This document shows positions 5,221 to 13,604 of a DNA stretch of 64,000 nucleotides, one piece after another. The notes beneath the pieces are model-generated. The model was not told the origin of the DNA and did not search any database. It saw only the letters and a list, made by a program, of their open reading frames with translations. Source of the DNA: Streptomyces sp. DG1A-41 (GTDB lineage: Bacteria; Actinomycetota; Actinomycetes; Streptomycetales; Streptomycetaceae); assembly GCF_037055355.1 (NCBI RefSeq), contig NZ_CP146350.1, positions 2,007,001 to 2,071,000 on the forward strand, in the 5' to 3' direction. The stretch's first letter is position 1. Each line of letters starts with the position of its first letter. Made by a program: the position numbers and the translations under genes.

Positions 5221-5239
5221 TTAGGTAAACCTAATCTGA
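5221..5239. promoter_or_regulatory. DmdR/IdeR-type iron box
   Basis: TTAGGTAAACCTAATCTGA matches 15 of 19 positions of a typical DtxR/DmdR iron box (TTAGGTAAGGCTAACCTAA). It lies 73 bp upstream of sufR and 71 bp upstream of the acetyltransferase start, so either divergent gene could be controlled. Iron control of suf is the more natural reading. Confidence 0.55.
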
Positions 5240-5309
5240 CCTGCGGAAATGATCTCTGATCGAGCAAACCGGTGGCATGCCGAAGCCGCTTCGGGGACAC
5301 TCCCGAACC

Positions 5310-6107
5310 ATGTCCACACCCCCTCCGACCGGCCCTCTTGTCACCCGGGACACACTGGGTGGACAGCTGTCCGAGCTGGGCGTGCGCCCCGGCGAGACCC
5401 TCCTCGTGCACTCCTCGCTCAGCTCCCTCGGCTGGGTCAACGGCGGCGCCGTCGCGGTGGTCCAGGGGCTGCTCGACGTGCTCGGCCCGGAGGGCACGCT
5501 GGTGGTTCCGACACAGACCGGCGACCTCTCGGACCCGGCCCTGTGGGGCAACCCGCCCGTGCCCCCGGAATGGTGGGCGGCCATCCGCGCCACGATGCCC
5601 GCCTACGACCCCCGGATCACACCCGCGCGCGGGGTCGGCGTCGTCCCGGAGACCGTGCGCACCTGGCCCGGCGCGCTGCGCAGTGCCCATCCGCAGACCT
5701 CGTTCGCGGCGGTCGGCCCGCGCGCGGCGGAGGTGATCGAGGGCCACGCCCCCGACTGCCGGCTGGGCGAGCGCAGCCCGCTCGCGAAGCTGGAGACCAT
5801 GGGCGCCCGGGTCCCGCTGCTCGGCGTCGGCTACGCCTCCTGCACCAGCTTCCACCTCGCCGAGTACCGGATACCGTCCCCGCGCGTCGCCGTGGGCCGA
5901 CCGGGTTCCGAGGGCTGGGAGACCGTGATCGAGGTGTCGATCAGCTCGGACCGGTTCGACGAGCTGGGCTACGACTTCGAGCGGGACCGTCCCGTCGTAC
6001 GCGGAAAGGTGGGGGCGGCCGAGGCGCGGCTGTTCCCGGTGGAGGACGCGGTGGCCTACGCCGAGCAGTGGCTGCCGCAGCACCGCTCCCGCGAGAAACA
6101 GTCCTGA
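5310..6107 (+). CDS. AAC(3)-family aminoglycoside N-acetyltransferase
   Basis: 265-residue member of the aminoglycoside 3-N-acetyltransferase fold, which transfers acetyl from acetyl-CoA to an amine. Family blocks seen: [24 protein letters not shown] near the N-terminus, [58 protein letters not shown] and [10 protein letters not shown] with the conserved histidine. ATG at 5310 is preferred because a GGGGA lies upstream; the alternative ATG at 5277 has no good ribosome site. Streptomyces carry several such genes, often without an associated antibiotic cluster, so the true substrate may not be an aminoglycoside. Transcribed away from suf. Confidence 0.85.
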
Positions 6108-6165
6108 GCCGGGCCGCCTGAGCCCCCGCTGATCTCGTACGGAGGCCGGTGCCAAGCGTCGGGGG

Positions 6166-6195
6166 TTACCTCCTGTGGCACATGATGCCTATAAA
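6166..6195 (+). promoter_or_regulatory. Putative promoter of the receiver/glycosyltransferase operon
   Basis: -35-like TTACCT (6166-6171), 18-bp spacer, -10 TATAAA (6190-6195) in an unusually AT-rich patch, with a strong GGAGG shortly after at 6205. The -10 is good, the -35 weak. Confidence 0.4.
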
Positions 6196-6212
6196 CCCTA
6201 TTTTGGAGGTCA

Positions 6213-6239
6213 ATGCCCTACTTCCCGGGACAGCGATGA
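6213..6239 (+). CDS. Possible 8-codon leader peptide MPYFPGQR
   Basis: A strong Shine-Dalgarno GGAGG sits just upstream of ATG 6213. This frame encodes only MPYFPGQR, and its TGA stop overlaps the ATG of the next gene as ATGA. The downstream receiver gene has no strong ribosome site of its own, so ribosomes ending here could reinitiate on it. Reading is direct from sequence; translation is inferred. Confidence 0.45.
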   Translation: MPYFPGQR

Positions 6240-6619
6240 ACTCTCCACACGTACCCGTCCACGTACTGGTCATCGAGGACGACCGGGATGTGAGCGCCCT
6301 GCTGGAGCGGTACCTCAGTGGCCTGGACTGCCGGGTGACCGTGGCCGACTCGGGTGAGAAGGGCCTGGATCGGGCGTTCGCCGACCCTCCGGACATGGCG
6401 ATCATCGATGTGCTGCTGCCCGGGATCGACGGGCGGGAAGTCGTCCGGAGGCTGCGGGCGGACGACCGGACGAAGGAGTGCCACCTCGTCGTCTCCTCCG
6501 TGCTCGACTCGGACGATCTGAGGGAGCTGGCGACGGGCCTGCTGGCCAAGCCGTTCCGGCAGGCGGCGGTGGCACGGCTCCTCGCCTCCTACCGGAACGC
6601 CGTATCACAGGAGGAGTGA
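6236..6619 (+). CDS. Stand-alone response-regulator receiver (first of two)
   Basis: 127-residue single REC domain. The acidic pair is in VIEDDRDV near residues 14-16, the phospho-acceptor is D58 in IIDVLLPG and the conserved lysine is K105 in AKPF. There is no output domain, so it probably acts by protein contact or phosphotransfer. The ATG at 6236 overlaps the leader peptide stop; a longer frame from 6149 exists but adds no homologous sequence. The stop overlaps the next ATG (TGATG). Head of a five-gene coupled unit. Partner is probably the histidine kinase encoded at the end of the unit. Confidence 0.85.
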   Translation: MNSPHVPVHVLVIEDDRDVSALLERYLSGLDCRVTVADSGEKGLDRAFADPPDMAIIDVLLPGIDGREVVRRLRADDRTKECHLVVSSVLDSDDLRELATGLLAKPFRQAAVARLLASYRNAVSQEE

Positions 6620-6993
6620 TGGCCCGTGTTCTGATAGCCGACGACGACGCCGACATTCGCGACCTCGTGGCGTTCAAGCTGAGTCAGAGCGGTCACCAGG
6701 TCACGCCTGTGGAGGACGGCATGTCGGCGCTGCAAGTGGCGCGTCGGCAGCCGCTGGATCTCGTACTCCTCGACATACGGATGCCGGGGATGTCGGGACT
6801 GGACGTCTGCCGGGAGCTGCGCGCGGCCCACGACACCGCGTCGCTCCCCGTCATCCTGATCACCGCCCGGTCTCAGGAGGGAGACGTCGAACTCGGCTTC
6901 GCCGCGGGCGCCGACGACTACATCATCAAGCCCTTCAGCCCGCGCGAACTGTCCAGCCGGGTCAACGCGGTGCTCACCCGGGTCGAGCGGTGA
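6619..6993 (+). CDS. Stand-alone response-regulator receiver (second of two)
   Basis: 124-residue REC domain of the PhoB/CheY type: IADDDADIRDL at the N-terminus, phospho-acceptor D52 in LLDIRMPGMSG, ITAR block, and lysine K104 in IIKPFSPREL. No DNA-binding output domain. The gene begins inside an AGGAGGAG ribosome site at the end of the previous gene and overlaps its stop by one base. With the first receiver it could form a two-step phosphorelay or give two separate outputs from one kinase. Confidence 0.88.
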   Translation: MARVLIADDDADIRDLVAFKLSQSGHQVTPVEDGMSALQVARRQPLDLVLLDIRMPGMSGLDVCRELRAAHDTASLPVILITARSQEGDVELGFAAGADDYIIKPFSPRELSSRVNAVLTRVER

Positions 6994-8090
6994 TTCCCCT
7001 CGACTTCGTCACCGGCGCGCTGCTGTGCCTGCTGGCCGTTGCGCTGGCGCTCGTCCTGCTGACCGCCTCCATCCGCTGCGTCCGCCTATTCCGGGAGCGC
7101 AGACGCGAGCGGGTCGCGGCGCCGGTACGCGGCCTGCTGCTGGAACTGCTGTGCGCCGAGGAGGACGCGCAGAGCGAGCTGCTGGACCGCCTGTCGCGCA
7201 TCGACAGGCGCACCTGGGCCGCGCTGGAGCCGACCGTCACGGCGATGCTGGGCAAAGTCTCCGGAAGAGCGCGCGCGGCGCTGGTCCCCCTGTTCGAGCG
7301 CCGCGGGTCCCCCGAGGACTGCATCGCCGAGCTGCACAGCCGCAGCGCGGCCCGGCGGGGACGCGCCGCACATGTACTCGGTCAGCTCCGCCACCGGCCG
7401 GCGGCCCCGTCACTGTGCCGTCTGCTCGACGACCGTGACCCGGAGGTGCGGCTGGCCGCGGCGCGGGCGCTCGGCCGAACGGGTGATCCGATGGCCGTAC
7501 CGTACCTGCTGAGGAGCCTGCACGGACCGCGGACCGTGCCGTACCAGGTAGTCACCGCGGCGCTGGTCTCCCTCGGCCCTGACGCGCAGTTCCGGGTCGC
7601 CGCAGGACTTCAGGACCCGGCGCCCCCCGTCCGGGCCGTGGCGATCGAGGTGCTCGGCGTGACCAGAGCGATTGCCAGCACCACCGAGGTCGTTTGTGCG
7701 CTGCGCGAGGGTCCGGAGACCGAGGTACGGGTCCGGGCGGCACGCGCGCTGGGCAGGCTGGGCATGCCCGACGGCCTGGACCCGCTCCTGGCGGCCATCC
7801 GGACCGGTCAGCCGGGTGCCCTGCGCATCGCGGCGACCGGGGCCCTGGGCAGTCTGGGGGCCTGCGCCGCGACGGGCCCGCTGACGGAGCTGCTCGCCGA
7901 CGCCGACCCGCATGTGGCCGGCACGGCCGCGCGGGCGCTGCTGCGGCTCGGCCCGGCGGGTGAGGTGGCACTGCGGGAGGCCGCGGACGGCCGCCCGGGC
8001 ACGCCCGCCGCCGCCCAGGCCAGGGCCGCCCTCGGGGAGGCTGCCGTCGCGGGAGTGCGTCACGACCTCCTGTTGGAGGTGACTCTGTGA
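6990..8090 (+). CDS. Membrane-anchored HEAT-repeat protein
   Basis: 366 residues. An N-terminal membrane helix (about residues 7-28, LLCLLAVALALVLLTASI) is followed by a basic RERRRERV stretch and then repeated alpha-helical HEAT/PBS-lyase-type units such as DDRDPEVRLAAARALGRTGDPMAVPYLLRSL and GPETEVRVRAARALGRLGMPDGLDPLLAAI. HEAT arrays are protein-binding scaffolds. GTG start overlapping the receiver stop (GTGA); its own stop overlaps the glycosyltransferase start the same way. Position between receivers and a polysaccharide synthase suggests it carries the phosphorelay signal to the synthase at the membrane; this is inference. Confidence 0.82.
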   Translation: MIPLDFVTGALLCLLAVALALVLLTASIRCVRLFRERRRERVAAPVRGLLLELLCAEEDAQSELLDRLSRIDRRTWAALEPTVTAMLGKVSGRARAALVPLFERRGSPEDCIAELHSRSAARRGRAAHVLGQLRHRPAAPSLCRLLDDRDPEVRLAAARALGRTGDPMAVPYLLRSLHGPRTVPYQVVTAALVSLGPDAQFRVAAGLQDPAPPVRAVAIEVLGVTRAIASTTEVVCALREGPETEVRVRAARALGRLGMPDGLDPLLAAIRTGQPGALRIAATGALGSLGACAATGPLTELLADADPHVAGTAARALLRLGPAGEVALREAADGRPGTPAAAQARAALGEAAVAGVRHDLLLEVTL

Positions 8091-9580
8091 GCGCGGCGGA
8101 CGTCGAGATGTGGGACGGACTGCTGGGCACGTTGCACGGCCTGATCGCGGTGTGCGACACGGCCATCGTCCTCTACTTCCTGGCCATCAACACCGGCTAT
8201 CTGGTGCTGATCCTCTTCGCCCTGGCTGAAGTGGTCAGGAGGCTGCGCCGGGCCCCCTTCGCCGGCTACGAGGACGCCTCCAGCAGTCCCTTCACCCCGC
8301 CCATCTCGGTGATCATGCCCGCGTACAACGAAGCGGCGGGCATCACAGAGGCCGTACGGGCCATGCTGCTGCTGCACTATCCGGTGTTCGAGGTCATCGT
8401 CGTCGACGACGGCTCCAGCGACGGCACGCTCGACGCCCTGGCCGACGCCTTCCACCTCGCCGAGGTCGACCACGTCGTACCCGAAGACGTCCCCATGCGG
8501 GGCAGCGTCACCTCGGTGCATCTGCCCCGCGGAGCTCCGGTGCCCCTGGTGGTGGCCCGCAAGGGCAACGGCGGCAAGGCTGACGCGCTCAACGTCGGGA
8601 TCAACCTGGCGCGTTATCCGCTGCTGTGCATGGTGGACGCCGACTCCATCCTCGACTCCCAGTCCCTGCTGGCCGTGGCCAAACCGTTCAGCGACGACCC
8701 GCTGCGGGTGGTGGCGACCGGTGGCGTGGTCGGTGTCGCCAACGGCTGCACCATCCAGGCCGGGCGCGTGGTCGAGGCACGCGTCCCCGCGGACGTGCTC
8801 GGACAGGCCCAGGTCATCGAGTACCTGCGCGGCTTCTTCCTCGGCCGTACCGGATGGTCCAAGGTCGGCGGGCTGCTGATCATCGCCGGCGCCTTCGGCC
8901 TGTTCCGCCGGGACGTGGTGGTGGCGGCGGGCGGCATGGACCCCGAATGCATCGGCGAGGACGCCGAACTCGTCGTCCGCCTCCACCGGCACCTGCGCGA
9001 GCAGGGCCGCCGCCACGGCGACTACCGCGTCGTCTTCGTCACCGAGCCGATCGCCTGGAGCGAAGCACCCTCCAGCCTCCGGGTCCTGGGGCGCCAGCGG
9101 CGTCGGTGGCACCGCGGTCTGACCGAGATCCTGATCAAGCACCGCCGCATGATCGGCAACCCGCGCTACGGCCGCATCGGACTGGTGGCGCTGCCGTTCT
9201 ACGTGCTCTTCGAACTGGCGGCCCCGCTGGTGGAACTCGCCGGTCTCGTGCTGGTGCCCCTGGGTGTGCTGATCGGCGCGGTCGACGCGGACTTCCTGTG
9301 GCGCTTCATGCTGGCCGCCTACGCCTACGCGATGGTCGTCAGCCTGGTGTCGGTCGCGGTGGAGGAATACGCCTGCCACCGCTTCTCACGGTGGCGGGAC
9401 GTGTGGGGCGCCCTCGTCGGCGTGCTCGTCGAGAACATCGGCTACCGCCAGGTCACGGCGTGGTGGCGGCTGCGCGGTATGTGGGACGCGCTGCACGGGG
9501 CCCCACAGGTGTGGGGGGCCATGACTCGCAGCGGATTCGGCCCGTCCCAGCGGGAGCGGGAGGGCGGTGGTCGTCCATGA
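8087..9580 (+). CDS. Membrane glycosyltransferase family 2 (processive polysaccharide synthase type)
   Basis: 497-residue integral membrane GT-A enzyme. One N-terminal membrane segment (about 25-48), then the GT2 domain: VIMPAYNEA near 73, VVDDGSSDG near 105, MVDADS near 181 (DxD-type), GEDAEL near 289 as catalytic acid region, and QRRRW near 336, the Q-x-x-R-W motif of processive synthases such as cellulose, hyaluronan and poly-GlcNAc synthases. Further membrane helices lie at about 365-400 and 405-430. No PilZ c-di-GMP domain is present. The donor sugar cannot be read from the sequence. Overlaps both neighbours by 4 bp, so it belongs to the receiver/HEAT/kinase unit. Confidence 0.87.
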   Translation: MSAADVEMWDGLLGTLHGLIAVCDTAIVLYFLAINTGYLVLILFALAEVVRRLRRAPFAGYEDASSSPFTPPISVIMPAYNEAAGITEAVRAMLLLHYPVFEVIVVDDGSSDGTLDALADAFHLAEVDHVVPEDVPMRGSVTSVHLPRGAPVPLVVARKGNGGKADALNVGINLARYPLLCMVDADSILDSQSLLAVAKPFSDDPLRVVATGGVVGVANGCTIQAGRVVEARVPADVLGQAQVIEYLRGFFLGRTGWSKVGGLLIIAGAFGLFRRDVVVAAGGMDPECIGEDAELVVRLHRHLREQGRRHGDYRVVFVTEPIAWSEAPSSLRVLGRQRRRWHRGLTEILIKHRRMIGNPRYGRIGLVALPFYVLFELAAPLVELAGLVLVPLGVLIGAVDADFLWRFMLAAYAYAMVVSLVSVAVEEYACHRFSRWRDVWGALVGVLVENIGYRQVTAWWRLRGMWDALHGAPQVWGAMTRSGFGPSQREREGGGRP

Positions 9581-11673
9581 GGTTGCCCGTACGGCTGCCC
9601 TGCGACTGCGTGGCACGCCGGCTCGCCATGGCCTTCGGACTGCTGATCGCTCTGCTGCTGCTCGTGGGAGCCGGGTCACTGACCACCGCCAAGGTGGCGG
9701 ACCACATGCACGATCGGGTGAGCCGACTTGAGCCGGTGCTCCGCGAGAACATGCGCGTGCGCGACCAGGTGACCCGTATGAGCCGTGCCGTGCGCACCTA
9801 TCTGCTCACCGGTGACACGGCCGCGAGGAGCAGCTACCACCAAATGCGCGACGAGCCCTTCGCCACCCTTGCCGAGGCCAGGCGGACCGCCACCGCGTCG
9901 GCCCAGCGGGATCTCGCGACGCAGGACCGGCAGCTGCGTGCCTACGTACGCGTCGCCGACCAGCAGGCGATGGCCACTCCCGGCAGCGCAGCCGCGAGCC
10001 GACTGACCGCCGAGGCGGCCCGGGAGTTCACGGCGTTCGACACCACCAACCAGCGGCTGGAGATGCAGGTCACCGGTGACATGCAGCGTCTGGAGGACCG
10101 GGCCGACGCGTTCCTCAACGGCAGCTTCGCGGGCATTGGCGTCCTGCTGGCGGCAGGCGGGGCACTGGCCGTCGTCACGGCGGTCCGCACCACCCGCGCC
10201 CTCACCCGGCCGCTGCAGAGCACGGCTGGGACCCTTTGCCGGCTGGCCTCGGGCGAACACTCGGCGCGGGCCGAGGAGGAGGGACCGGAGGAGATCAGGG
10301 CGGTGGCGCGGTCGGTGAACGCGCTCGCCGACGAGAGCGACCGGCTGCGGGCGATCGAGCAGGAGCGCGCCAGACTGGCACACACCGCACGGGCCGTCGG
10401 CGTCCGCATCCGTGAGCACCTCGACGTCGATCAGGTCCTCGACACGGCGTGCGCCGGAATCGGCGAGGGGCTGGAGGCCGACCACGCCTTCGTTCTCCTC
10501 ACCGAAGAGGACAGTCCCCTCGTGCGCGTGGCACGCGCCTGGATCGCGGGAAGGGGGCTGCTCCCCGCGCAGGACCAGCCGATTCCGCCCATCCCTTTCG
10601 ACGTGGTGCGCGACCACTACCGGCGGGGAACGGCCTGGTGCCTCAACGATCTGCCCGCCGTGCTGGCCGAGGGATCACCGCTGCCCGGGGCGCCCGGGTC
10701 CTTCGGCGAGGGCGGCCTGCCGCAGGACGCTCGGGCAGCCGCCGAGACGCTGGGCCTGGTGGGCGTGCTCGTCGTCCCGCTCGGCGTCGGTGAGAAACCG
10801 CTCGGTGCCGTCTTCCTCGCGCGGACCCGGCCGGATCGCCCCTGGCTCCCGGTGGAGATCGAGACCGCCGAGTCCATGGCCGCCGGCGTCGGCCGCGCAC
10901 TGCACACCGCCCAGCTCTACAAGAAGGAGACGCACCTGGTGGAGAAGCTGCGCGCCCTGGACAAGGCGAAGAGCGACTTCCTGTCCACCGTCTCCCACGA
11001 GCTGCGCACCCCGCTGACCAGCATCGTGGGATACATCGAGCTGCTGAAGGACGAGGAGACCGGGCCACTCAGCCCGCCGCAGCTGCACATGCTGGACGTC
11101 GTCGACCGCAACGCCAACCGTCTGCGGGCGCTCATCGAGGACTTGCTGACCCTGTCGCGCATCGAGTCGGGGGTGTTCGGCTCCAAGAAGGAACCGGTCG
11201 ACCTGTGCCTGCTCGTGGCTTCGGCGGCCGACGCCATCCGGCCTGCCGCCGAGGCCGCCTCCGTCACCCTGGAGACACACTGTCCATCCCGCCCCCTGAT
11301 ACTGGAGGCGGACAGTGACCAACTCGACCGGGTCGTGATGAACCTGCTGTCCAATGCCGTCAAGTTCACCCCGAAGGGCGGGAAAGTCACCGTACGTGCC
11401 GAGGACAGGGACGGCGAGTCGGTCCTGAGCGTCAGCGACACCGGCATCGGCATCCCCGCCGCTGAACAGGAGAAGCTCTTCCAGCGGTTCTTCCGTGCAT
11501 CGAATGCCACGGACGCGGCCATTCCGGGCACCGGTCTGGGCCTGACCATCGTCCGCACCATCGTGGCGAACCACGGCGGCGAGATGGAGGTGCACTCCGA
11601 GGAGGGCCGCGGCACCACCTTCACCGCCCGGTTGCCGATCGCCGCCGCGAGCGGGGCGGCCGCCTCGTCCTGA
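9577..11673 (+). CDS. GAF-containing sensor histidine kinase
   Basis: 698 residues. TM1 about 15-35, an extracytoplasmic helical region of about 140 residues (VLRENMRVRDQVTRMSRAVRTYLLTG, CHASE3-like), TM2 about 180-205, HAMP to about 255, GAF about 275-445, HisKA with phospho-acceptor H474 in STVSHELRTPLTSI, and HATPase with N box MNLLSNAVKFTPKGG near 585 and G boxes SDTGIGIP and GTGLGLTIV. ATG overlaps the glycosyltransferase stop (ATGA). Last gene of the unit. Likely phosphorylates one or both receivers at the head of the operon. The start inside the upstream gene is set by the overlap and the signal-anchor sequence. Confidence 0.9.
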   Translation: MRLPVRLPCDCVARRLAMAFGLLIALLLLVGAGSLTTAKVADHMHDRVSRLEPVLRENMRVRDQVTRMSRAVRTYLLTGDTAARSSYHQMRDEPFATLAEARRTATASAQRDLATQDRQLRAYVRVADQQAMATPGSAAASRLTAEAAREFTAFDTTNQRLEMQVTGDMQRLEDRADAFLNGSFAGIGVLLAAGGALAVVTAVRTTRALTRPLQSTAGTLCRLASGEHSARAEEEGPEEIRAVARSVNALADESDRLRAIEQERARLAHTARAVGVRIREHLDVDQVLDTACAGIGEGLEADHAFVLLTEEDSPLVRVARAWIAGRGLLPAQDQPIPPIPFDVVRDHYRRGTAWCLNDLPAVLAEGSPLPGAPGSFGEGGLPQDARAAAETLGLVGVLVVPLGVGEKPLGAVFLARTRPDRPWLPVEIETAESMAAGVGRALHTAQLYKKETHLVEKLRALDKAKSDFLSTVSHELRTPLTSIVGYIELLKDEETGPLSPPQLHMLDVVDRNANRLRALIEDLLTLSRIESGVFGSKKEPVDLCLLVASAADAIRPAAEAASVTLETHCPSRPLILEADSDQLDRVVMNLLSNAVKFTPKGGKVTVRAEDRDGESVLSVSDTGIGIPAAEQEKLFQRFFRASNATDAAIPGTGLGLTIVRTIVANHGGEMEVHSEEGRGTTFTARLPIAAASGAAASS

Positions 11674-11697
11674 CCCGCCCCGCCGTCTGCGGGCACC

Positions 11698-12612
11698 TCA
11701 GACGGTGTCCTCGAAAGACACTCCCCGCGACCGGTAGTCGGCGACAGCCGCCTGCACATCGGCCGGGCTGAGCAGCTGGTCCCGGACGAAGTAAACGTAG
11801 TCGACCTTCTCCTCGTACGCGCGTGTCTTACGGCTGTTGATCCCCAGCAGGTTGATCAGCCAGTGGTTGAAGCGGATGCTCATCGTCGACTCGGGCAGGT
11901 ACGGCTCGCTGTGCCTGGCGAAGAGCCGGCCGTCGATGTAGTAGGTGATCGCCGTGCTGTCGACGGTGATGACCAGGTCGTGCCAGCCGGCGAAACTCGC
12001 ACGCTCCTGTGTGGTGACGTGCTCCTCCTGCGGCGGGTCCTCCGAGTACGTCTCCCAGGAGCTCGCCAGCAGGGCACTGCCGGTGATGCCCCATCCGCCG
12101 TTGGGCAGGTACTCGAAGTCGAGCTCGCTGTAGGCCGGGTCCATCGGGTAGTTCAGCGGTGAGATGGTGAAGAACGTCTGCACCATGCGGTCGCCGTCCG
12201 GTCCGTAGATCGGCACGTCGCTGAAGCGGACCCGCGCGGCGTAGGTGCCGTACAGGAACTTGCGCTGCTGGTAGATCTCGGTGTGCTCGGTGCCGGACGC
12301 CGTGCCGTTGGTGCCGGAGCGCATCGTCATGACGGAGTTGCCGGACTCGGTGGCGAAGGTGATGTTCTGCGGCCTCCACGTGGCACCGGGCACGCCCGGC
12401 CCGCCCTGGCCGGACCGCAGGGTCCAGCCGCGCTGGGTGAGCTGCGGATCCGTGTAGTCGGTGTAGTTGAAGTCGTCGAACAGTGCCGGTCCGACGACGG
12501 GCTGGGCGGCCGCGCGCGGGCTGGGAAGGACGACTAGGGCTGCGCACAGCAGCCCCCATGCGACGAGGGCGGCAGCGGCCCTCATCCGGAAGAGCACGGC
12601 GCATCTGATCAT
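11698..12612 (-). CDS. Secreted GH16-like glycoside hydrolase
   Basis: 304 residues with a signal peptide (about 1-37, basic start then AAAALVAWGLLCAALVVLP and RAAAQP). The mature part is a concanavalin-type beta-sandwich with the GH16 catalytic motif E163-L-D165-F-E167 (ExDxE), plus FFTISPLN and WHDLVITVD blocks typical of the fold. Family members cut beta-glucans, agar or related polymers; the substrate here is unknown. It faces the kinase gene tail to tail with a 24-bp gap. A hydrolase beside a polysaccharide synthase is a common pairing for trimming or release of the polymer. An internal ATG at codon 10 could be the true start. Confidence 0.8.
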   Translation of the reverse strand: MIRCAVLFRMRAAAALVAWGLLCAALVVLPSPRAAAQPVVGPALFDDFNYTDYTDPQLTQRGWTLRSGQGGPGVPGATWRPQNITFATESGNSVMTMRSGTNGTASGTEHTEIYQQRKFLYGTYAARVRFSDVPIYGPDGDRMVQTFFTISPLNYPMDPAYSELDFEYLPNGGWGITGSALLASSWETYSEDPPQEEHVTTQERASFAGWHDLVITVDSTAITYYIDGRLFARHSEPYLPESTMSIRFNHWLINLLGINSRKTRAYEEKVDYVYFVRDQLLSPADVQAAVADYRSRGVSFEDTV

Positions 12613-12802
12613 GGGTCAACTGCCTTTCTGCGGAAGGAAGACGACGTCCGCGTCCCACCCCGGGCGGACCACGGCCAGTGAAGCATCGACAGAAGATCGG
12701 TATACGCCGGATACATCCGGCTCACCCGAACAGCCCAAAGAGCACGGTTTGCAGGATTGCGTGATCCGGGACGACGGAGCCTCCGCTGGGGTCGTGGCCG
12801 TC

Positions 12803-13471
12803 TCAGCGCAGACGTGCGGCGCCCTTGATGGCCAGGTAGACGCCGAAGACCAGGCAGATGACCATGCCGATGGCGCGGGTGTGCCGTTTCGCCGCGGCCA
12901 GCATCGGAGTGAGCAGCGCTTGCGCCTGGGCAGGGGCGATCAAGTACAGCCCGAGCGGCACGAGTACGGCGAGCAGCGCCAGCACCACGACGATCGCCAG
13001 GACGACGACCTGGTCGGCCGTCGATACGGAGTCGGCGAGGGCGATCTCCTTCACCGCGGGAACGAACAGCGCCAGGCTGGAGAAGTTCACCGCCATGAGG
13101 CCGGCCCCGAGCAGAGCACACGCCCTGGTACTGGTGACGGCGTGGCGCGGGTGGCGGTGTGATGTGCCGACTGCGGGTCTGAGCGCGGTGCGCACTGCCA
13201 AGAGCAGCAGGAGCGCACCGAAGACGAGGTCGACGACCGGCGAGACCCTGAAATGCCCCTGGCCTCGGGCTCGGTGGAAGAGAACGAGTCCGGCCGCCCC
13301 GATGACGGCGAGCGGAACCGCGGCTCCCGCCGTGAACGACCCCGCTCGCCAGCGGGGGCGGACCGGGTCGGAAAGGAGCACGACGGCTGCCACGAAGAGA
13401 GCCGGGCTGAGCGCGGCTCCCAGAGCCAGTGGCAGGACTTCGGCCAGCAGTGTCGTCACGAGGTCAGTCAA
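12803..13471 (-). CDS. GAP-family (Sap-like) integral membrane protein
   Basis: 222-residue protein with about six hydrophobic segments, beginning TLLAEVLPLALGAALSPALFVAAVVLLS, of the GAP/Sap group related to LysE-type exporters (mycobacterial Sap proteins help export glycolipids). The reading frame uses a TTG at 13471; a GTG at 13459 would remove four residues and is equally possible. Charged loops are histidine and arginine rich. It lies head to head with the ABC exporter gene. Transport substrate unknown. Confidence 0.72.
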   Translation of the reverse strand: MTDLVTTLLAEVLPLALGAALSPALFVAAVVLLSDPVRPRWRAGSFTAGAAVPLAVIGAAGLVLFHRARGQGHFRVSPVVDLVFGALLLLLAVRTALRPAVGTSHRHPRHAVTSTRACALLGAGLMAVNFSSLALFVPAVKEIALADSVSTADQVVVLAIVVVLALLAVLVPLGLYLIAPAQAQALLTPMLAAAKRHTRAIGMVICLVFGVYLAIKGAARLR

Positions 13472-13591
13472 CGCCGACGGGTGGGCCGTGCCGGTGCGGA
13501 CACGCCTGGCCCGGCCACGGCATCACCCGGAGAGGACCGGGACGGAGGAGGGGATCGACAACCCGCCCGTCCGGGGAGGTGGGCGCGTACC

Positions 13592-13597
13592 TAGACT
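13592..13597 (+). promoter_or_regulatory. -10 element of a leaderless ABC-transporter promoter
   Basis: TAGACT ends seven bases before ATG 13605, which has no Shine-Dalgarno site, so transcription probably starts at the ATG. No clear -35 is visible. Confidence 0.5.
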
Positions 13598-13604
13598 CGG
13601 GGCC

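Follow-up and report, generated by a model that had tools for sequence, protein, structure and literature searches.

A conserved receiver–HEAT–glycosyltransferase–kinase gene unit in Streptomyces sp. DG1A-41 and its possible role in polysaccharide synthase control

A tightly packed five-gene unit

We analysed a stretch of 64,000 nucleotides from Streptomyces sp. DG1A-41 (contig NZ_CP146350.1 of a one-contig, 8.99-Mb genome; hereafter the window), in which five genes follow one another in tandem on the + strand. They encode two stand-alone receivers (REC1 and REC2), a HEAT-repeat protein, a glycosyltransferase of family 2 (GT2; this protein is called GT below) and a histidine kinase, and a glycoside hydrolase gene faces them from the other strand:

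6236..6619, + strand: REC1, stand-alone receiver, 127 residues (PF00072, 8.4e-15, the sole family above cut-off)
6619..6993, + strand: REC2, stand-alone PhoB-like receiver without an output domain, 124 residues (PF00072, 8.4e-30, the sole family above cut-off)
6990..8090, + strand: membrane-anchored HEAT-repeat protein, 366 residues (HEAT_2, 4.5e-28)
8087..9580, + strand: GT, predicted GT2 processive-type polysaccharide synthase, 497 residues (Glyco_tranf_2_3, 1.2e-22, and motifs)
9577..11673, + strand: membrane histidine kinase, 698 residues, CHASE3-like/HAMP/GAF/HisKA/HATPase_c (Pfam)
11698..12612, − strand: GH16-like secreted glycoside hydrolase, convergent with the unit (PF00722, 3.4e-6)

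By the open reading frame (ORF) calls, the successive genes overlap by 1, 4, 4 and 4 bp, as a first-pass annotation made from the letters of this DNA had reported in claiming overlaps of 1–4 bp at every junction. Overlaps this tight exceed chance, since across the 81 loci described below they join 154 of 209 same-strand gene pairs within the unit (74%) and only 153 of 594 outside it (26%). The annotation's start of the unit, 6166, needs revision: REC1 most likely begins at the ATG at 6236, because the N-terminus that this start gives, MNSPHVPVHVLVIEDD, agrees with that of a relative (locus L043). For REC2, a GTG at 6616 is a possible alternative start. Just before REC1 lies an ORF of eight codons (6213-6239) with a GGAGG, sharing ATGA with the REC1 start; conservation of this leader was not seen by eye in the relatives compared. 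The same region (6160-6240) contains a CCTA(a/t)TTTG-like element, and inspection by eye shows it ahead of REC1 in several further Streptomyces loci.

Both receivers were correctly read as output-less. Response_reg is the only Pfam family above cut-off in either, and at 127 and 124 residues they carry no transcription-factor output; the Pfam scan of all five products found neither a DNA-binding domain nor PilZ, in agreement with the earlier reading. The kinase, described there as CHASE3-like/GAF, has GAF, HAMP, HisKA (PF00512, 1.9e-22) and HATPase_c (PF02518, 1.4e-32) above cut-off, but its CHASE3 match is sub-threshold (0.0036); the homologous kinase of locus L099 scores 8.8e-8. Hydrophobic segments at about residues 9–27 and 182–200 flank the stretch between ~27 and ~182, which therefore probably lies outside the cell. 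A HisKA and HATPase_c kinase with a phospho-accepting His, alongside receivers with a phospho-accepting Asp, provides the parts of a two-component system.

The HEAT_2 match and an N-terminal hydrophobic segment, present in 76/76 HEAT proteins, bear out the membrane HEAT protein of the first-pass annotation, and its AlphaFold2 model is an alphaRep-like helical solenoid (predicted local distance difference test score 94.7). In GT the motifs DDG, DAD, GED and QRRRW were confirmed, the last being the QxxRW signature from which a processive type had been called; the residues D108, D184, D186, E291-D292 and Q337/R338/R340/W341 are kept in 79/79. The AlphaFold2 model of GT has a GT-A domain resembling those of hyaluronan synthase and BcsA together with transmembrane and interface helices, as expected of this class (the fold comparisons of predicted structures all come from the VIA second look). 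GT is therefore predicted to be a membrane-embedded, processive-type GT2 synthase that would make and extrude a polymer.

Which polymer that might be is not given by the family models. The nearest NCBIfam model, PgaC/IcaA (TIGR03937), scores 110.5 bits, about a quarter of its cut-off of 422.3, and an identity as a PgaC/IcaA synthase of poly-N-acetylglucosamine (PNAG) is not supported. Nor is one as MatB, as the CE4 deacetylase domain PF01522 does not occur in the window's GT; elsewhere in this genome, three further GT2 genes (L002, L003 and L004) do have it. The closest relatives of GT are Streptomyces proteins. A relative in Cellulomonas sp. URHE0023 (L111, 9971-13540, + strand), bears a C-terminal extension of ~690 residues without a Pfam match, and comparison of this extension with the PDB sequences gave no match at the search threshold.

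Conservation of gene order, active sites and fusions

Gene order was compared in two sets of loci. The first derives from a profile scan of genome contigs with a GT alignment (A1) and consists of the best 80 of 148 confirmed relatives plus the window, 81 loci in all; GT lies too close to a contig end in six of them, leaving 75 assessable. In the context counts of this set, 'kinase' denotes the best match to the window's kinase, which is not always of the same subfamily. The second set consists of 40 loci with wider flanks, out of 60 places in phylum-level genomes; 39 are assessable, and the two sets may overlap.

A HEAT gene lies just upstream of the GT gene, or is fused to it, in all 114 assessable loci (75 and 39). 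In the first set, 74 of the 75 loci have it no more than two genes upstream of GT (adjacent in 73), and in the 75th (L059) a HEAT ORF missed by gene calling is present upstream of GT; in the second set it is immediately upstream in 38 of 39 and fused to GT in the remaining one (L133). In 62 of the 75 loci of the first set REC2 adjoins HEAT upstream with the same orientation, and a single gene separates the two in nine more (a kinase gene in eight of these; L059 is not counted). The full order REC1-REC2-HEAT-GT occurs in 29 of the 75. Of 74 loci, 38 have a kinase gene directly after GT in the same orientation and 9 have one there in the opposite orientation; some kinase-like gene is present within six genes in 68. 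In the second set a receiver is encoded no more than 4.5 kb upstream in 33 of 40 loci, by an ORF that is short, giving a stand-alone receiver, in about half of the cases; in some loci it is divergent, and in the rest fused. The check that the first-pass annotation had proposed, a search for the same gene order in other genomes, has thus been made: HEAT and GT stay together throughout, mostly with a receiver upstream, and order and partners persist wherever GT was examined, so that the refuting outcome it had named, an order not kept elsewhere, did not occur. Conservation in both sets rules out a local accident of gene order.

GT relatives at E≤1e-60 were counted at three levels, with the window's own genome included each time: 7 of 199 congeneric genomes have one, as do 16 of 296 at class level and 57 of 396 at phylum level. 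Since only 7 of the 199 congeneric genomes carry GT, the unit is not typical of Streptomyces. Streptomyces carriers include S. djakartensis and S. humidus. Many carriers in the first set come from sporangium-forming genera (Actinoplanes, Planomonospora and Dactylosporangium), but Cellulomonas and Arthrobacter are among them too.

The phosphorelay parts have intact active sites. In the alignments of the first set, D10, D53 and K105 of REC2 are found in 62/62 sequences and T83 in 61/62; REC1 keeps its phospho-Asp and Lys in 29/29, and the kinase its H474 in 45/45. REC2 also has residues of its own, L17 (60/62), K21 (62/62), S60 (59/62) and R110 (57/62), that occur in 0/29 full-length OmpR-like regulators of the same loci, a small background set. 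L17 and K21 belong to the first receiver helix, which contacts the kinase in two-component systems. REC2 is likely to be the output receiver, and REC1 an optional member of the unit, likely a phosphate sink or a second input.

Protein fusions offer a further view of the partnerships. A protein search with the L133 product gave 782 relatives, of which the best 120 were surveyed; 117 of these contain a GT of the window's family. Nine are HEAT-GT fusions (P0127, P0131, P0139, P0151, P0174, P0185, P0230, P0238 and P0239), with HEAT preceding GT as it does in the operon, and one, P0230, is labelled Spirochaetota. These fusions are the best evidence on whether HEAT works on GT, and they support such a role. 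Among the matches listed, a histidine phosphotransfer domain (HPt) follows GT in P0136 and P0220 and a receiver follows it in P0130 (Vicinamibacterales). A REC-GAF-kinase protein is found in L145. The receiver and HPt fusions to GT suggest, more weakly, that phosphorelay parts also act on GT. Parts, active sites, order and HEAT-GT fusions alike are read directly from the computed comparisons.

Some apparent fusions carry little weight or were set aside. The L133 fusion is weak evidence, its closest relatives being a separate GT (P0121-P0123) and a separate HEAT protein (P0124-P0126). L157 and L159, taken for REC-HEAT fusions, instead encode receivers with an unannotated HPt-like middle beside a separate HEAT gene, and P0187 (CheA-like parts, GT and an aldo-keto reductase) is probably a read-through of neighbouring genes. 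The survey also turned up GTs of the window's family fused to TPR (P0129, P0151 and relatives), and the YaiO outer-membrane barrel PF19413 in 20 of the best 120. P0151, of 1390 residues, unites HEAT, GT, TPR and a long C-terminal part in a single chain. It is odd to find an outer-membrane barrel attached to a synthase of the inner membrane.

A proposed phosphorelay and its alternatives

We give a little better than an even chance to the reading that the unit is a phosphorelay-gated synthase, in which the signal would run from the kinase through REC2 and HEAT to GT as a post-translational switch, with REC1 as a sink or second input. The membrane kinase would sense an extracytoplasmic or GAF-bound signal and autophosphorylate on H474, then phosphorylate REC2 at D53 and REC1 too; REC1 would compete as a phosphate sink or supply a second input. 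Phosphorylated REC2 would dock on the membrane-anchored HEAT solenoid, itself in complex with the synthase, and so act as a protein-level switch, on or off, for the activity or assembly of that enzyme. The glycan that the synthase would polymerise and extrude may, in some Streptomyces, be trimmed by the neighbouring GH16-like enzyme. The direction of phosphotransfer, the binding of REC2 to HEAT, the sign of the effect and the product are features that we infer. The first-pass annotation had likewise suggested phosphorelay control of the synthase through HEAT; the HEAT-GT partnership in that suggestion is backed by gene order and fusions, while for control by the receivers we infer more than the comparisons display. 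Its observation was right and its interpretation is plausible, better supported than the letters alone could have made it; the mechanism is a proposal.

A number of findings weigh against this reading. REC2 is absent within three genes of HEAT in 3 of the 75 loci of the first set (L074, L089 and L099), and no receiver lies within 4.5 kb upstream in 7 of the 40 loci of the second, one of which (L150) ends before the upstream region. No REC-HEAT fusion was found in the retrieved loci. The HEAT-GT fusion of L133 has separate genes as its closest relatives, and the GT-receiver fusion P0130 is the sole such protein in the best 120 of 7996 and may be an assembly join. Two points in favour of the reading carry caveats. 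The distance matrices of the partners correlate at 0.85–0.95, but such values are expected from joint inheritance and reflect shared descent as well as co-function. REC1 tracks the window's type of kinase, which is present in 28 of the 29 loci that have REC1 and in 14 of the 46 that lack it, a comparison uncorrected for phylogeny. The remaining points concern cyclic di-GMP (c-di-GMP), which may be the real effector or a second one.

The foremost alternative, unlikely in our estimate, is that the synthase–HEAT complex is controlled mainly by c-di-GMP and that the receivers have diguanylate cyclases or phosphodiesterases as their targets, or do no more than position the complex; the window's unit would then keep its receiver and use c-di-GMP produced elsewhere in the cell. 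GGDEF genes are frequent nearby: 34 lie within ~10 kb of the unit in 26 of 80 loci (1.54 Mb) of the first set (L050, L051, L053, L054, L055, L057, L059, L060, L063, L065, L066, L067, L069, L070, L071, L076, L077, L079, L082, L085, L088, L093, L095, L098, L105 and L115). The 9-Mb own genome has 11 and the 31 genomes compared have 6–24 each, so that this span would be expected to hold ~2 at the own density and ~4 at the highest. The enrichment is about tenfold or more, a rough figure because backgrounds differ between genera. GGDEF matches also occur in 18 of the 40 loci of the second set, and several Streptomyces have, beside the unit, a gene for a PAS-kinase-REC-REC-HPt protein and after it a GGDEF gene.

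Some of these domains are joined to the unit's own parts. Upstream proteins combine GGDEF with a receiver in L139, L140 and L141 and HPt, GGDEF and a receiver in L142 and L153; a REC-GGDEF gene is found upstream in L126. GT is followed by GGDEF-EAL genes in L152, L157 and L159, and a single ORF of 1093 residues in L127 (5173-8451, − strand) consists of GT with a C-terminal GGDEF, which shifts the balance slightly towards c-di-GMP control. In L146 (8243-10537, − strand) a receiver with four MshEN domains, a c-di-GMP-binding type of domain, is encoded directly upstream of HEAT-GT. The annotation had noted that no PilZ domain is present, which was confirmed; c-di-GMP cannot be dismissed on that ground, however, because relatives carry GGDEF or MshEN fused to receivers or GT, or next door. 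What holds us back from this alternative is that the window's genome has no PilZ and no MshEN (search at E≤0.001 in the one contig, other c-di-GMP-binding folds lying outside this search), that no GGDEF occurs in the window and none was called in 54 of the 80 loci of the first set, and that the partner is more often a receiver, in most cases one that stands alone.

Mere co-expression we hold to be less probable again. HEAT would be an assembly factor of the synthase, and the kinase and receivers would signal to other targets or serve only as a phosphate sink. In 27 of 74 loci no kinase gene comes directly after GT, and the signalling genes can stand apart: L086 and L094 each have a separate REC1-REC2-kinase trio near HEAT-GT yet outside it, and separate REC2-kinase pairs are present in L090, L096 and L121. 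In all five of these loci, however, HEAT-GT keeps its own REC2 beside HEAT, and distant lineages still have receivers upstream of HEAT, whether stand-alone, divergent or fused. That HEAT is instead an enzyme of the lyase or hydroxylase kind, modifying the synthase or a sugar lipid, we regard as very improbable, the similarity to phycobilin lyases and deoxyhypusine hydroxylase from which the idea springs being weak.

Product, neighbourhood and comparison with known systems

The neighbourhood gives some indication of the product. The GH16-like gene ends 24 bp past the kinase gene, and its translation contains ELDFE, which we take to be a GH16 mark; the protein found no match among the PDB sequences at the search threshold. 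A GH16-like gene stands beside the kinase gene in 10 of 18 Streptomyces loci, the window included (nine by similarity to the window's protein, L058 by Pfam); its product is a possible processing enzyme for the glycan. With a CBM96/GH26-like gene upstream in Dactylosporangium, these neighbours hint at a beta-linked glycan, and we take them as no stronger than a hint. Elsewhere the place after the kinase is filled differently. In Planomonospora and Planobispora (L073, L076, L079, L080, L082, L085, L088 and L098) the convergent gene stands in place of GH16 and belongs to a single similarity cluster, the member in L073 being a matrixin-type metalloprotease, and in Streptomyces sp. CME 23 (L057, 13604-15526, − strand) a second, different GT2 gene converges 1 bp past the kinase.

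Just upstream of the unit, at 5277-6107, lies a homologue of AAC(3)-like aminoglycoside acetyltransferases (176 bits, cut-off 270). The unit and the AAC(3)-like, GH16-like and SfLAP-like genes form an islet (5221-13604) between a regulator gene and an ABC transporter, the upstream border presumably being an HTH regulator with a SufB-like gene at its side. From regulator to ABC permease the distance is 9.3 kb in the window, 8.2 kb in another carrier (G110) and 1.0–1.9 kb in six of six chosen non-carriers.

The first-pass annotation did not recognise this layout as a described Streptomyces system, and no title or abstract describing such a unit was found in the literature searched, mostly outside subscription papers; some papers contain the relevant words, such as PMC7159879 and PMC12419801, but by their titles and the first lines of their abstracts they are not about a unit of this kind. 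We put forward, more tentatively than the mechanism itself and as a possibility that we would not call probable, that GT2 synthases gated by receivers through a membrane HEAT adaptor form a widespread class across Actinomycetota and at least one other phylum (Spirochaetota, with HEAT and GT fused). A receiver or HPt would sometimes be fused to the synthase, and the receiver slot could be swapped for GGDEF or MshEN versions, phosphorelay and c-di-GMP converging on the same adaptor and enzyme. If so, synthase control would have another general mode alongside c-di-GMP, and many orphan receivers and HEAT proteins would gain a function; the unit would also make a polysaccharide on the surface of Streptomyces and other actinomycetes accessible to direct genetic test.

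Among synthases with a similar predicted fold, hyaluronan synthase (7sp6, 8snc) shares 15% identity with the window's GT, and we know of no HEAT or receiver partner for it. The c-di-GMP-gated synthases, such as BcsA, resemble the unit in their membrane GT2, for which a BcsA-like fold is predicted here, and in the post-translational control that we propose; PgaCD and Alg44-type systems are further examples, with partner proteins. The window's genome differs from these in lacking PilZ and MshEN and in having receivers and HEAT, although some relatives carry GGDEF or MshEN. Within Streptomyces, MatAB (PNAG) and CslA-GlxA (a beta-1,4-glycan) likewise use a GT2-type synthase for a surface polysaccharide. 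According to the available part of PMC5972031, MatB joins its GT2 to an extracellular CE4 domain, whereas the window's GT has none.

The closest parallel in control comes from Myxococcus xanthus, where, in the available part of PMC12802240, the phosphorylated single-domain response regulator EpsW stimulates EpsZ at the protein level; the Dif chemosensory kinase that phosphorylates EpsW also has a sink receiver, DifD. That portion of the 2025 paper describes post-translational control of synthase-dependent polysaccharides as well characterised, frequently through c-di-GMP, and presents as new the mode in which a single-domain receiver controls a polysaccharide enzyme. The window shares with this system a stand-alone receiver with an intact phosphoacceptor (REC2 D53, 62/62) beside polysaccharide genes, and REC1 is proposed as the counterpart of the sink. 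The enzymes differ, EpsZ being described there as a large monotopic phosphoglycosyl transferase at the start of a Wzx/Wzy pathway, whereas GT is a predicted GT2 synthase; the window's unit would also add a HEAT adaptor and places kinase, receivers and enzyme in one operon. If our reading holds, a receiver–HEAT–synthase module across the phylum would give control by single-domain receivers a general form.

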